From Heliocidaris erythrogramma (lineage: Eukaryota; Echinodermata; Echinoidea; Camarodonta; Echinometridae), in the NCBI GenBank assembly GCA_025617745.1, contig CM046873.1, positions 30,969,101 to 31,033,100 on the forward strand: a stretch of DNA of 64,000 bases. Reading direction: 5' to 3'. Made by a program: the position numbers and the translations under genes. The notes under the pieces were generated by a model. The model did not search any database. It was not told the origin of the DNA and saw only the letters and a list, made by a program, of their open reading frames with translations. How positions within the stretch are numbered: the stretch's first letter is position 1; every line of letters begins with the position of its first letter. Positions 1,918-57,018 of the stretch are shown here, one piece after another.

Positions 1918-2257
1918 AATTGATTTTCAGTATGTTTGTAATTAATAGTTTCAATTAGCTGCATTAGAATGAAATACTTCCGTTTGCTAAGCTGAGTATC
2001 TTGACAGTCAGCTATCATCATGAATAGGATGTGCTCCACCCTTGTGGTCAAATAGGCAGAAAGCCATAAAGTTATTTATACTTCAATGACAGAAGGGCGG
2101 ATTAGTGATGTTCTTCATAATGTTCATTATTTTGAAAGGTCATTGGAAATACGATCCTGTACTCTTACATGAAAAACTGAATTGCTCAAATTTTCTGTTC
2201 ATTCTTTTGCTATAATCCCATGAATACGACTCTTTTTTACAACCGTCAATTTCATAT

Positions 2258-2348
2258 TTGATACTACTACTACTGATGCTGCTGCTGCTGCTACTAGTTT
2301 CCTGCTTCTTCTTCTTCTTCTTCTTCTTTACGGCGACGACGACGATGA
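2258..2348. repeat. Mosaic of four trinucleotide repeats
   Basis: Four trinucleotide tracts lie end to end: TAC, then TGC, then TTC, then GAC. They sit within about 90 bases with only short interruptions. This is a compound microsatellite in non-coding DNA. Confidence 0.85.
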
Positions 2349-3027
2349 GTTCGACTTTTGCTTATTTTGATGTGTTTGCTACTTTATCCATCTGCCACAC
2401 ATGTTTCAAATTTCAGATTGATACGTAAAAGGCTTTACAATATCAATGAAACTGCTTGTACGTACATGAGGGGGGGGGGGGGGGGGGGGGCGGTCCAGGC
2501 GTATTTATAAAAAGTGGAGGCACAAATGCCTCAAAATCATTGACAAACTATAAAAAAAAATGTACTTAAAGAATGCCAGAGGGATGAGTCGCCCCCTAAA
2601 TCCACCAGCGCTATATTTTTTTCCATTACCGGATAAGCCACTGATGTTGTTTTCATTATCATGACTGAAACATATTGTAAATTCTGAGGCGTGCTACTCC
2701 TGAAAAGACGACTACTTTACCCCGGAATAAAAATAATGAGTGCCAAGTCAACTCACCTGAAAACCATTGCAACAGTTAGTTGCTACTCAAAGAGGATAGA
2801 AAGAAAGAAAAGAAAGTGGAAATTATCATTCATGAAACGATGACATCTTATCGTGCGTAGAATAATCAAGAAGAAATCTCAGAAATTGGATATTAGGTAG
2901 TTTATGCGGTTTTTTTGTCTTTCAAGGGATAACGTGTGATCACCATGCAAAGCGTCGTAGATGTAAAATTCTAATCCTGCTTGATTAAATGCGGTTAACT
3001 TATAATCTACTTATATTCATTTCATAG
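2349..3027. other. No recognisable feature apart from a 21-base G run
   Basis: Poly-G lies at 2470-2490. The rest is AT-rich DNA without a convincing open frame or a repeat that I could match elsewhere in the window. Confidence 0.5.
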
Positions 3028-3373
3028 CTTAAAGATAATGTTGTTTTGGTATTGCAAATGCATGGTGAAAGAAAACTTTCTCGAAGCTATTTGGCCAAGT
3101 TGATTATGTATTACACTAGAATTGGTGTGTAATGTGAGGTTTTGGAATCACACAAAAAGAGAAGAAGGGAATGAAGAAATTGGCTCCATCTTGTTGAAAG
3201 TAACATACACTCTACATAGAAATGGGTAGATGGGACTACACACACACACACGTAGCATGGAAGTTTTGTCCAAACATAATAACGGGACATTAATTTTCTA
3301 CTATATTCTTTCAAACTGACGTAGAAAGAATAAAAAAGCTTACAAATCATTTTCGATTACCCTTCTCTTTAAG
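3028..3373 (-). mobile_element. Dispersed inverted-repeat element, family A, copy 1
   Basis: Reverse-oriented copy of a repeat seen seven times here. Shared landmarks are the terminal TTAAAGATAA block, GTGAAAGAAA, AATTGGTGTGTAATGTGAGG, TTTTGGAATCAC, ATGGGACTAC, and a closing stretch matching AAGCTTACAAATCATTTT. It has no coding capacity. Size (about 0.35-0.4 kb) and matching ends suggest a MITE-like non-autonomous DNA transposon. This copy is diverged and contains a short (CA)n at 3240-3252. Confidence 0.75.
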
Positions 3374-3600
3374 AGGGGATTAGGGTGGGGGAATGGGAGG
3401 GGTGTTCACGGGTCCGCTCGCAGCGGAGAAGGTATACCCGCGGTCGTCTGTTACGCGATTTCCCTCCTCGCTTGGACGATTGTTGAGCGGTGCGATGAAG
3501 GCTGGATTACCCTCTTACGGAATCGATTGCATGCAACGTGGACGGGGAAAGCAAGATAAGGACTTCTGAAGTCATCTTTTCCCCTCTCAAATTTTATATA
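3374..3600. other. CpG-rich patch without a gene
   Basis: This stretch is visibly richer in G, C and CpG than its surroundings, for example around GGGTCCGCTCGCAGCGGA near 3410. I see no open frame, TATA box or splice pattern that would make it a promoter or exon. It may be part of an unrecognised element. Confidence 0.4.
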
Positions 3601-7181: not shown

Positions 7182-8189
7182 CACACACACACACACACAC
7201 ACACGCACCCACTCCCTCTCTCTCGATCTCTCCCTCGCCAACCCTCTTTCGCCCTTCGTATAACCATAATGCAATATAAACGTTGTTATACACAATCATA
7301 ACAATACCGCTTACCATGTTAACTCATTTGAAAAATTGCTTAAGTGCTTCAGCACCCTTCATCCTCCCCTACGAATATTGCAATCCAATCATATATCATA
7401 AACAAAAGTAAGCGGAAAAACACCTGTCCTTTTAATCCATGCTCGATTGGTTTCTGGTTTCTCATCTTCTTAAAAGCGATTTTATCCATCTCTGCAGCCA
7501 TTTTATTTTAAAGAAAGCAAAGAAAAAAGCTCCCCCAGGCGATGCATATGCGTACAATGAAGCAGAAATAAGATCAATAAAGCACTGGAGTGATTTAGTG
7601 TAGGTTGAACTTCACAAAACGCATCTGAGTAAAAAGAGCTTTTTGTGTGGGAATGGGTAAACTTGACTTTGTCATAATAAGCTCCCTGTGGTCATGTATT
7701 AGATCTTGACATTATTAAAATTGACAAATGTCTACGATGATTGTTATTACAACTATAGAAGTAACGCAACATCATTTGAAATGGAGATTGAAATGCAGAA
7801 ATTAGTTTTTTTTTTCTGCGGTTTTCAGACATTTGCAATATCGAGGGCCACTTAGACAAAAGACCTCTTAACCGTGACTTTGACAAGTTTTATTTTTTTA
7901 TGTGATGCGACTCCGTTATGTGTAAATCAACTCTTAAAAAAAATCCAGTATTCACTGATCTCACTGAGTAACTCGTTTCAAATTGATATCTTTGATGATT
8001 TTGTACAATGATAAGAGTTACCATGTCATCTGACTAGGGCGCCGATTCGGGGGAGGGGTGGGGAGGTGGGTGTGTGCAGATGCCCATCTTCCAATAATTT
8101 TGGGTATCTTTAAGTACCGTTTTATTCCCCTTATTGCCCTCCCACACTATATCATCCTTAAGATAGATAATAAGAATTACGTCACTGAA
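7182..8189. other. No recognisable gene
   Basis: It begins with (CA)n to about 7204 and a short CT stretch to about 7245. The remainder is AT-rich and shows nothing I can assign. Confidence 0.5.
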
Positions 8190-18856: not shown

Positions 18857-19383
18857 TTTAATATAATAAGATTCATTTATATAGCGCAGCTACTATTTGA
18901 ATATGCTCTACTGCGCTTTGATGGAGACTCCTATATGCTTTCACTATATAAACAGAACCAATCTACTTAAAAGCCTCTGAAAACAGATGGGTCTTCAGTA
19001 GCGATTTAAAAATGGGGACTGATTGTGCTTTCCTTATTACAAGAGGAAGTTGGTTCCAGAGTTTCGGAGCAGCACAGCTAAATGCACAATCTCCAAGAGT
19101 TGCTTTCGTTTTGACACGAGGCAACTTTAGAAGCAGTTTGTCTTGTGAACTTCGTAAGTTATGTGTATATGGATGCAATTTAAAAGATAATAATTCAGAC
19201 AAGTAATTTGGGGCTTGACCATTCAAAGCAAACAAGCAAAAGTAACTTGAATGTGATTCTGTACTTTATTGGCAACCAATGTAACTTCATCAAAACAGGA
19301 GTGATGTGGAAAAATGTTGAGGAATTGGTCACAAGTCTTGCACAGGCATTCTGAACTCGCTGCAACTTCATGGTCTGTGAATT
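18857..19383 (-). mobile_element. 3' end of an L2/CR1-like non-LTR retrotransposon, broken
   Basis: Minus-strand translation gives the C-terminal tail typical of LINE reverse-transcriptase proteins: LQRVQNACARLV, then LHWLPIKYRITFK, then in another frame FALNGQAPNYLSELL, LRSSQDKLL, GDCAF, LWNQLP, FKSLLKTHLF. The frame switch lies near 19235, so the copy is frameshifted. After the stop comes an untranslated stretch ending GCGCTATATAAATGAATC (complement near 18880), which is how L2-type elements commonly end. Only the 3' tail of the element is present, as expected for 5'-truncated LINE insertions. It sits inside the surrounding tandem repeat. Confidence 0.88.
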
Positions 19384-20998: not shown

Positions 20999-21006
20999 CT
21001 CTGAGC

Positions 21007-21323
21007 GGGGTCCGCTCGCTATTCAAAAGGACCGCTATTCATAGAAAACCGCTATTCATTTAACACGCGTTATGAATAGCGCTCCTTATGAATAGTTATG
21101 AACAGTGGTCCTTAATATGAATGGAGGTCCTTATAAATAGCGAGGTAATTTGTCTATGGTTTGCTCGCTAATTAGAAGGACCGCTATTCATACAAAACCG
21201 CTATTCATTTAGTAACGCGTTATGGAAAGCGGTCCTTATGAATAAGTGGTCCTTATGGATAGCGGTCCTTATGAATAAGTGGTCCTTATGAATAGCGGTC
21301 CTTATGAGTAGGGAGGTTACCCC
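21007..21323 (+). mobile_element. Word-array element C1 with exact 8-bp target duplication
   Basis: The 317-bp block starts GGGGTCCGCTCGC and ends AGGTTACCCC, and it is flanked on both sides by CTCTGAGC (20999-21006 and 21324-21331). The interior is almost entirely the word AAGGACCGCTATTCAT, its complement ATGAATAGCGGTCCTT and shortened variants, in changing orientation. Two copies of an ACGCGTTATG phrase and one TTTGTCTATGG phrase are also present. A second, reverse-oriented copy with its own 8-bp duplication is at 56720-56950. Eight-base target duplications are typical of the hAT superfamily, but the terminal bases are not the usual CAG. It is non-coding and so non-autonomous. Confidence 0.88.
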
Positions 21324-21331
21324 CTCTGAGC

Positions 21332-22469: not shown

Positions 22470-22860
22470 GGGGGGTCTATTTTTTCCCGAAGGTTCATAA
22501 TTTCTATGGTTCGTAATTCCTAAACGCAAATTGCCCATAATTCCAAAACTGAAATAGGATTTATAATCCCGAACATTTGATGCATTATTCCGAAGGTTCG
22601 TGTCAAAGGTTAGTAATTCCGAACATGAAATAGGGTTCACAATATTCCAAATATGAAATAGGGTTCATAATTCCGAAAATAAAAAAGGTTTCAGAATTCC
22701 GAAGGTTCGTGATTCCGAAAATGCAGTAGAGCCCTACCTAACTTTTCGGAATTACGAACCTTTGGAAATTTGAACCCTTTTTCATTTTCGGAATTAGAAC
22801 CTTCGGAATTACGAACCGTCGGACTAACGACCTTCGGAATTATGAACCTTCGGAAAAACG
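22470..22860 (+). mobile_element. Word-array element E, a large inverted repeat of the word GGTTCATAATTCCGAA
   Basis: From the left the phrase GGTTCATAATTCCGAA and variants (GGTTCGTAATTCC, GGGTTCATAATTCC) recur about seven times in one direction, separated by AAAATGAAATA-like spacers. From about 22738 the complement TTCGGAATTATGAACC recurs about five times in the other direction. The outermost parts, TTTTTTCCCGAAGGTTCATA on the left and TATGAACCTTCGGAAAAA on the right, are inverted copies. A G run (about 22463-22474) abuts the left end. No protein is encoded. Overall build is the same as elements C and D, with an unrelated word. Confidence 0.75.
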
Positions 22861-23784
22861 AGATGGGGGAAGGGGCGGGCGAGGTGCAGCATTTTGTAGA
22901 GGGAGATACTGGAGGCGCGGAGCGTTTTTGAAAATAGAGGATGGGGCTGAACATGCGAACGAGCATAATCATTATCATAATTATGAAACGCGTCTACTGA
23001 AAAAAGTGTGTTGTGTGTGTGTGTGTGTGTGTGGGGGGGGGGGGGCTGTAAAGAGGGTATGGGAGGAAGGGGGTGGCTGAAGCATAATTCAAGTAAGCTG
23101 AGATTTTAAGTGAATTACAAGTACATGTATGTATAAATTCTTTGTTCTTCCATGAATATATGTACATTTGTCCATATATGTAAGATGTACTTGTAAATTG
23201 TAAATGTTTCTGTTTATACTTTATTCATGATTGTAACATGTTTATTTTTTGTATAGACTGTTGATTTCACTGAAAAGAAATTAAATAAAAGAATAGTTAA
23301 GACCCCCCCCCCCTAAAAAAAAAAGGCCCCAGCGTTTTGGTTCTGTGGCCCTTGTACATGGTTCTTTTCTTGCATATACATGTAGATAGCTGTTGATTAC
23401 TTCCATGATAGAACACGCACACAAATAGGCCGTTCGCTAATATACTCGATTTTATGTAAACTTTAACTTGTTTTACCCAAATATCAGCAACTCTACTCCT
23501 AAAATTACAATGTAGTTAGTATTGCATATACATGTACTAGTGTATTTCAGTGATCTAACTGCTATCGTAACTGCCGAAATGAATGATTCGAAAAAAGAGG
23601 GAAAAAAAGAGGAAGTGGGATGTGGGAGTGTGAAAAGGGCAGAGACGTGGAAAGGAATCACTGCAATGTAACGAAGGAGAGAATTAGGATGTTTACATAT
23701 TACCAACCAGACTATGAATCTTGATCAGAAGGGGGAAAGGAGGGAAGGTCTAACTTCGGATAGAGGCATTAGTGTATCCACGGG
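22861..23784. other. No recognisable gene; GT then G run
   Basis: (GT)n at 23011-23032 runs straight into 13 G residues (23033-23045). A C run lies near 23303-23312. The rest is AT-rich with no convincing frame. Confidence 0.5.
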
Positions 23785-36787: not shown

Positions 36788-36859
36788 TGTCTCCGCCGGG
36801 AATCGAACCCGGGTCGTTGGCTTAGAACGCCAATGCCTTAACCACTAGACCACGGAGAC
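36788..36859 (-). tRNA. tRNA gene, predicted Arg (anticodon UCU)
   Basis: The minus strand folds into a complete cloverleaf. The acceptor stem is GTCTCCG paired with CGGAGAC (seven perfect pairs) plus discriminator A. The D arm is in GGTCTAGTGGTTAAGGC. The anticodon stem TTGGC/GCCAA has five perfect pairs and loop GTTCTAA. The variable loop has four bases, and the T arm CCGGG/CCCGG carries loop TTCGATT. With T at position 33 the anticodon is TCT, which reads AGA (Arg). No intron and no encoded CCA are present. Both internal Pol III promoter boxes are intact and an oligo-T run follows. The G at position 32 is unusual, and the D arm resembles Glu/Asp-type tRNAs. An alternative is a very young SINE head, but no SINE body follows. 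Confidence 0.82.
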
Positions 36860-55876: not shown

Positions 55877-56719
55877 CTGAGTACCATTTATACCTTGGGT
55901 GGAATGGAAGCAAATGTGTCTGGTTGTCTACGTATAGTCAGAGCTAAGATCATTGAAGATTATTGTAAATCCTGTGAAAACGACAATCTTAGCAGCATAC
56001 CAAAGGATTCATACAGTGTTTATTTCTCTTATTTGACATAGAAAATACGTCAATAACATATCACCCGTTTTGTTATTGCCCAAGGCGAGGGAACGATATT
56101 TTGTTATCACGGTAACGCATGAGGATTTATAGCTCTTAGATCCCAATCGAAACCGCTTCAATGTCAATTTTGATCTATCCTTCGAGAATTGGGTAACTCT
56201 AATACCTGTGTTTAACGATGACTTCTTTCATTCAGTGTTGACAGCTTGCGAGCAAGTTCAATCAACTTGGATTCAAGCTGTCAAGCTTGACCTAGCGATT
56301 TTGAATTGAGATAGGATTTCCTTGCTGAATATAGTTCTTGTAAGATTTAATAACTGCTTGTCATCGTTGAGATTACTGTTGAAGTTCGAATCATCGATCT
56401 GCAATGCTGATTATTACAAATCACCACAAATTTGCTGGGAAGAATCATGAATTGTTCCTAAAATGAACTGTTTTTTCTTATGAGTATAAGGAGTGGCAAT
56501 TGAGCTTATTTCTGCCAGGCATTGTGCTTTGTTATCGTTTGATTGCCGTCGTATGTGAGGGAGGTAATCAAGCTTTTTTGTTGAGCATTCCTCCATGCAT
56601 TTTTCCTCCAGAAATTAGCCCAATATTAGTCTTATTCGATCCAATCCAAAATGTATTTGATATAGTACCTTTTCCCTGCGGGTACAAAACGCTGCACACT
56701 ATGTTTGGGCCATTTAAAA
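55877..56719. other. No recognised gene; echo of sequence left of the hAT element
   Basis: GGAATGGAAGCAAATGTGTC with TGTAAATCCTGTGAAAACG (55900-55985) resembles GGAATGGAAGAAAATGTGTG with TAGATCCTGTAAATACCG (55098-55160) on the other side of the transposon. The host therefore seems to carry a diverged tandem duplication whose junction the element entered. No other feature. Confidence 0.45.
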
Positions 56720-56950: not shown

Positions 56951-57018
56951 ATTTAAACAATAAATATTACTTCACAAAGACCAGTTGACATGGTTGAGCC
57001 AAAACAATCCATTGTTCT

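Follow-up and report, generated by a model that had tools for sequence, protein, structure and literature searches.

Foldback transposons have long inverted arms made of short tandem repeats, and a few described families of this kind are the closest counterparts of the element analysed here. This element, C1, is a 317 bp sequence in a 64-kb window of DNA (the whole stretch that was analysed, G000:C21:30969101-31033100) from a 1,064-Mb eukaryotic assembly of 26 contigs that represents an animal-type genome. C1 and a second copy in the window, C2, very probably belong to a large family of short DNA transposons without genes, foldback-type miniature inverted-repeat transposable elements (MITEs), which would move in trans. 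The family is real and well supported as a mobile family, and it is ordinary in kind: a new family of the known foldback/MITE type.

Tm1, a Mutator-type foldback element of root-knot nematodes, has composite inverted repeats of variable length with a different terminal motif at each end, a repeated internal motif present in varying copy number, and MITE-like members (accessible part of PMC3169594). The C1 family is alike in all these features. It differs in its target duplications, which are 8 bp long here and most commonly 9 bp (range 8-10) in Tm1, and in that transposase-coding members are known for Tm1, whereas none was found here. In Drosophila virilis, Tetris and DAIBAM, as described in the available portion of PMC4079207, also have tandem repeats inside their foldback arms and duplications of 8-10 bp; a MITE shares their ends, and no autonomous partner was found for them either. 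Their repeat unit is about 220 bp, in contrast to 16-33 bp here, and they are represented by three structurally complete copies, in contrast to thousands of ends here.

The Drosophila element Galileo shares the long, internally repetitive inverted repeats (accessible part of PMC3573991), but it belongs to the P superfamily and its transposase is known; at the 15 of 20 P-type loci read in this genome, no pair of the ends of C1 was found within 1.5 kb. The Merlin superfamily is characterized by duplications of 8-9 bp and a terminal 5′-GG (PMC8101967, available part). The present family matches it in duplication length and in the GG at one terminus; the left end is often CG, and at the 30 of 52 Merlin loci that were read no Merlin transposase was found between these ends. 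Foldback elements of sea urchins are named in the accessible text of PMC4079207, which cites Lieberman et al. 1983. Our literature searches, in which the sequence itself is not searchable, named no family like the one described here. The sea urchin elements reportedly have long inverted repeats of ~15-bp tandem units and 8-bp duplications; by this description they are alike in unit size and duplication length, which we take as a lead only.

Two copies in the window

The sequence-only reading of the window described C1 as a 16-base word repeated in both orientations. Matches to this word, AAGGACCGCTATTCAT, or to its complement were counted across the window at up to 3 mismatches. There are 17 matches, 10 in C1 and 7 in C2, and nowhere else, against a mean of 0.5 and a maximum of 2 in dinucleotide-shuffled windows. 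The repetition is confirmed, but the description of C1 as almost nothing but the word went too far: the words cover half of it (160/317 bases), and 112/231 bases of C2. There were 0 exact matches to the word in the set of viral contigs and 0 in the set of prokaryotic contigs.

C1 occupies positions 21007-21323 on the plus strand and carries its 10 words in the order >><<<>><<<. It starts with GGGGT, ends with ACCCC and is flanked directly, at 20999-21006 and at 21324-21331, by two copies of the octamer CTCTGAGC that agree in 8 of 8 positions, as had been claimed. The left terminal inverted repeat (21007-21059, 53 nt) is 75% complementary to the right one (21271-21323), so that long inverted arms of tandem short repeats are weakly developed in C1 itself. 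Just inside GGGGT the two ends diverge: read inwards, the left end is GGGGTCCGC and the right end GGGGTAACC, with CCGC at one and AACC at the other. C1 is a head-to-tail dimer, the start of its first half-unit (21009-21062) being 89% identical to the start of the second (21158-21211). Two tandem 33-bp units at 21220-21285, 97% alike, are the source of its extra length, one 33-bp unit more than the 281-bp consensus of the family.

C2 (56720-56950, minus strand) is a shorter, reverse-oriented relative of 231 bp, in line with the earlier description, and compared with the consensus it has lost ~50 bp near its right end. The 8-bp duplication attributed to it is not exact: ATTTAAAA at 56712-56719 and ATTTAAAC at 56951-56958 (both given on the plus strand) match in 7 of 8 positions. 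Its terminal base is also changed; on the plus strand C2 reads GGGGT...ACCCG, with G as the outermost base in place of the usual C.

Neither element has coding capacity. C1, C2 and the consensus consist of words and short spacers, and no open frame of at least 130 aa overlaps C1 or C2. The suggested capacity of such sequences to pair with themselves is strong in folding predictions. As single-stranded DNA, C1 is predicted to fold with -69.8 kcal/mol, compared with -30.6 in shuffled sequences (z = -11.3), and C2 with z = -8.6; the value predicted for C1 as RNA is z = -11.9.

Dispersed copies and their target duplications

When C1 was used as the query of a DNA search, 1248 first-look candidates came up; the best 40 were scored, and these are spread over 18 of the 26 contigs. 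The 14-mer of the left end has 2233 exact matches in the genome (1110 + 1123), and the reversed control has 1 + 0. Words and duplications were tabulated on two samples of copies. For the best-match set 30 loci were fetched, and 8 were dropped (L008 and seven loci of a group with shared flanks) because of shared flanks or segmental duplication, leaving 22. A positional sample was also used, because the best-match copies had been picked by likeness to C1. It comprises the first 40 listed left ends, all on contig C1 (a label of the assembly, as is contig C10, and distinct from element C1), with 441 bases read at each.

In the positional sample the right end was recognized in 29 copies for the scoring of duplications. 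The 8-bp flanks matched in 8/8 positions in 6 of them, in 7/8 in 10, in 6/8 in 5 and in fewer in 8; thus 16/29 copies have a duplication of at least 7/8. The 29 include the second member of each of three near-identical pairs (L091/L092, L094/L095, L102/L103), and none of these second members is among the 16. Both ends were found in 19 of the 22 best-match copies, with scores of 8/8 in 8, 7/8 in 6, 6/8 in 3, 5 in one and 1 in one, which gives 14/19 at 7/8 or better. The copy scoring 5 (L003) rises to 8/8 when its right end is placed one base further on. Among the three copies outside the 19, L021 scored 8/8 separately, and the right ends of L007 and L009 are damaged. As a control, the left flank of each of 50 copies was paired with the right flanks of the others: of the 2450 pairings, 10 reached 7/8 and not one reached 8/8.

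The 32 copies with a duplication of at least 7/8 (including C2 and L078) define the ends. Their first base is C in 20 (CGGG), G in 11 (GGGG) and T in 1, followed by GGG, which was part of the selection. The last base is C in 31, and read inwards the right end is mostly GGGGT; the right-end sequence of the family is GAGGTTACCCC, with GTTGCCCC as a variant. Inverted terminal repeats, target duplications of fixed length and high copy number (2233 exact left ends), the marks of a MITE, are therefore all present.

These results also bear on the idea that C1 is a local satellite whose flanks match by chance. Its word arrays are tandem, and eight loci do share their flanks, as a satellite might. The same ends, however, occur genome-wide, and the duplications vary between copies yet agree within each copy, much more often than in the mispaired control. 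The earlier reading had said that other copies lacking the duplications, or having unrelated ends, would point to a satellite; the 2233 exact left ends together with the copy-specific duplications speak against this, and we reject the satellite, to which we give next to no credence. The mobility claimed from the duplications in the window is upheld on wider grounds, because thousands of dispersed ends come with 8-bp duplications far in excess of the control.

Several observations weigh against this reading of C1 and its relatives as a mobile family. Eight of the 30 best-match loci (L005, L010, L013 on one side only, L018, L022, L024, L027 and L029) share flanking sequence and were multiplied along with a larger repeat rather than through transposition of the element itself; the duplication seen at a given copy is for this reason no proof that every copy moved on its own. 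L007 and L008 are one segmental duplicate. In the positional sample 13/29 copies have no duplication of 7/8, although one of them, L096, reaches 7/8 with its right end shifted by one base. The constancy of the left end is partly by construction, its sequence having been required when copies were chosen. Finally, searches for Merlin, P, hAT and Mutator domains, which are weak tests, found no transposase-coding element with these ends, so that movement in trans is a step that we infer.

As a separate observation, a stretch of tRNA-like appearance, gtggtctagtggatacgtca, follows the MITE in the larger repeat shared by the eight loci.

Dimers, monomers and long arms

The 281-bp consensus, built from 22 rows, is a dimer in which two ~141-bp units are joined head to tail, and the words stand in the same register across the best-match copies. 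The full word string >><<<>><< was found in 2 of 30 best-match rows. C1 and L002 have one word more, and most others miss at least one, a missed word in these rows being a match under the cut-off (L009 was left out of this layout and L028 is cut short in it). L026 has one additional 16-bp unit. L002, like C1, has an additional 33-bp unit; its two units share mutations absent from C1, and the two 33-bp duplications therefore look independent.

The length of the best-match copies is mostly 278-287 bp, a uniformity that is biased because similarity to C1 was the basis for choosing the set. The positional sample is more varied: the 30 copies scored here with a right end are 86-289 bp long. Of these, 25 exceed 200 bp (223-289 bp), and only 2 lie within 278-285 bp. 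These 25 copies are 93.2-97.6% identical to the consensus (median 95.3%), figures that are tilted upwards because an exact left end was required. Compared with the consensus they have 34 deletions of at least 5 bp, counted with two near-identical pairs included, and 18 of the 34 are word-sized (16 bp in six, 17 bp in ten, 33 bp in two). Loss of whole words is therefore common. Together with the 10 words of C1 against the 7 of C2, this agrees with the earlier proposal that the interior expands and contracts.

The dimer junction is present in 25 of the 30 copies. The copies that lack it are L081 (86 bp, duplication 6/8), L091/L092 (121 bp, 6/8), L115 (143 bp, 7/8) and L116 (266 bp). A stand-alone 141-bp monomer lies at L009:2967-3107, and two further copies (L079, L082) are interrupted by other sequence.

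Longer relatives have the same ends. Four of the 40 sampled ends (L078, L099, L113, L114) run into arrays of a variant of the word with a period of ~26 bp; L113 and L114 have a flank in common and represent a local duplication. L078 and L120 together form a complete long form of 663 bp with the exact duplication TTTTAGTT on both sides, in which the 12-base core of the word occurs, at up to 2 mismatches, in 2 right-facing and 13 left-facing copies. A search with the right arm of L078 gave 1880 candidates; the best 40, scored at 39 places, include both orientations within 369-733 bp at 11 of the 39. Long inverted arms of tandem short repeats are thus found in L078/L120 and at these 11 places. 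With monomers, long arrays and dimers all found with these termini, one pair of ends is common to the three forms.

The long arm at L118 gave 2180 first-look candidates; among the best 40, which were scored, the top matches other than L118 itself are 93-94% alike, and a single orientation was found at each listed place. The 1201 bases that follow this arm (about 2100-3300 on the reverse complement) are themselves repeated, with 1166 first-look candidates and 40 scored copies that are 80-91% identical, leaving L118 itself aside. The L118 interior is probably another repeat adjoining the arm and not the interior of a long form, because L118 is the only place common to the 40 listed arms and the 40 listed interior copies, and because two other interior copies on the scanned part of contig C1 have no listed end less than 4 kb away (47 of 100 listed ends compared). 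One of the four open reading frame pieces of L118 that were scanned matched Pfam, as a Pao peptidase.

An unrelated word, TTCGGAATTACGAACC, occurs in both orientations at 22480-22865 of the window, with 18 words at up to 4 mismatches. At L119 (reverse-complement coordinates) two arrays of this word, at ~2890-3470 and ~7560-8090, face opposite ways and flank ~4 kb. They may represent a second foldback family that this genome harbours, built on the same plan. Elsewhere in the window, a minus-strand open frame at 18966-19265 resembles what we take to be the C-terminal end of a long interspersed nuclear element (LINE) reverse transcriptase, and a tRNA-Arg (tct), which may be a gene or derived from a SINE, is predicted on the minus strand at 36788-36859.

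Candidate transposases and a possible role of the words

The superfamily of the C1 elements is not settled; Merlin or a Mutator-type enzyme fits the ends and the duplication length best, and hAT fits badly. Domain searches of the genome gave 52 matches for Merlin (PF12762, DDE_Tnp_IS1595), 20 for P (PF21789), 76 for hAT (PF05699) and 31 for the Mutator-like elements (MULEs, PF10551). The match nearest to any of 40 listed long arms was 93.7 kb away for Merlin, 77 kb for P (18 of the 20 matches used), 17 kb for hAT and 11.9 kb for MULE, a comparison with little power because only 40 of the 2180 candidate arms were listed.

Mobilization by a Merlin (IS1595-like) transposase is possible, and we hold it tentatively. 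The 8-bp duplications and the GG at the right terminus fit the definition of the superfamily in the available part of PMC8101967, and several of the 52 matches have long open frames. The left end is CG rather than GG in the 20 CGGG copies described above, and no listed long arm is close to a Merlin match. Within 1.5 kb of the 30 Merlin loci that were read (of 52), no pair of these ends was found; there were just two solitary 14-mers, both at the limit of 3 mismatches. The surroundings of the same 30 loci were also searched for inverted repeats with 8-9 bp duplications, and nothing convincing was seen.

An equally tentative candidate is a transposase of the Mutator type (MULE/Phantom-like), the kind of enzyme suggested for the majority of foldback elements. 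Its appeal lies in the composite inverted repeats, distinct terminal motifs and MITE-like members that this family has in common with Tm1, from which it departs in duplication length. On contig C10, one of the 31 MULE matches lies 11.9 kb from a listed long arm. The expected number of such neighbours is ~0.03 for MULE alone and ~0.16 over the four families tried (estimated from match counts and genome size), and for this reason the pair is weak evidence.

The sequence-only reading had expected a hAT-like partner, and among the superfamilies scored this is now the least likely. Duplications of 8 bp are shared with hAT elements, hAT MITEs are common, and the genome has 76 hAT-domain matches. Elements of this superfamily, however, have a CA/YA-type start, and the SGGGT ends do not. 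The hAT match nearest to 39 MITE copies lies 42.5 kb away (coordinates only), in addition to the 17 kb from the listed long arms. The inverted repeats of hAT elements are short, 10-25 bp (accessible part of PMC3942097), whereas the arms here are long and repetitive. A hAT transposase is accordingly a very doubtful source of the movement.

For P-type elements, no pair of these ends was found within 1.5 kb at the 15 of 20 loci that were read, and the ends were not found in a repeat, 7.6 kb or longer, that carries a P-type frame of 869 aa. This frame is an observation in its own right: it contains a P-type RNase H domain, is present in near-identical form at eight loci (L062-L069, L076, L077) and has surroundings that are ~99.9% identical over 3.1 kb. 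Two of the loci match over ~7.6 kb, indicating that a large, recently multiplied repeat carries the frame.

Under the preferred reading of C1 as one copy of a foldback-type MITE family, a DDE-type transposase encoded elsewhere would bind the repeated words and the termini, excise the element and paste it with an 8-bp staggered cut. In Galileo, the tandem repeats hold further binding sites for the THAP domain of the transposase (available part of PMC3688188), and by this analogy it is plausible that the words serve as transposase binding sites. The presence of multiple words may raise the affinity or the specificity of binding. The dimer could have arisen by head-to-tail joining of a ~141-bp element that then spread, and replication slippage or unequal exchange would change word number by ~16, 17 or 33 bp at a time.

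We consider unlikely, but worth stating, a further possibility in which the SGGGT...ACCCC ends, the 8-bp duplications and the word-array arms mark a transposase lineage outside Merlin, P, hAT and Mutator. The words would then be a tunable landing array, on which bound words of either orientation are counted by the enzyme, while elements carrying a single set of words, a pair of sets or a longer series, each with the same two ends, would sample different doses of it within one genome.

The foldback MITE family to which C1 and C2 very probably belong enlarges the poorly classified group of foldback elements by a well-sampled member whose monomers, dimers and long-arm forms share one pair of ends in one genome. 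The word-sized losses seen in many copies, together with this series of forms, would allow a direct test of the number of words that a transposase needs.
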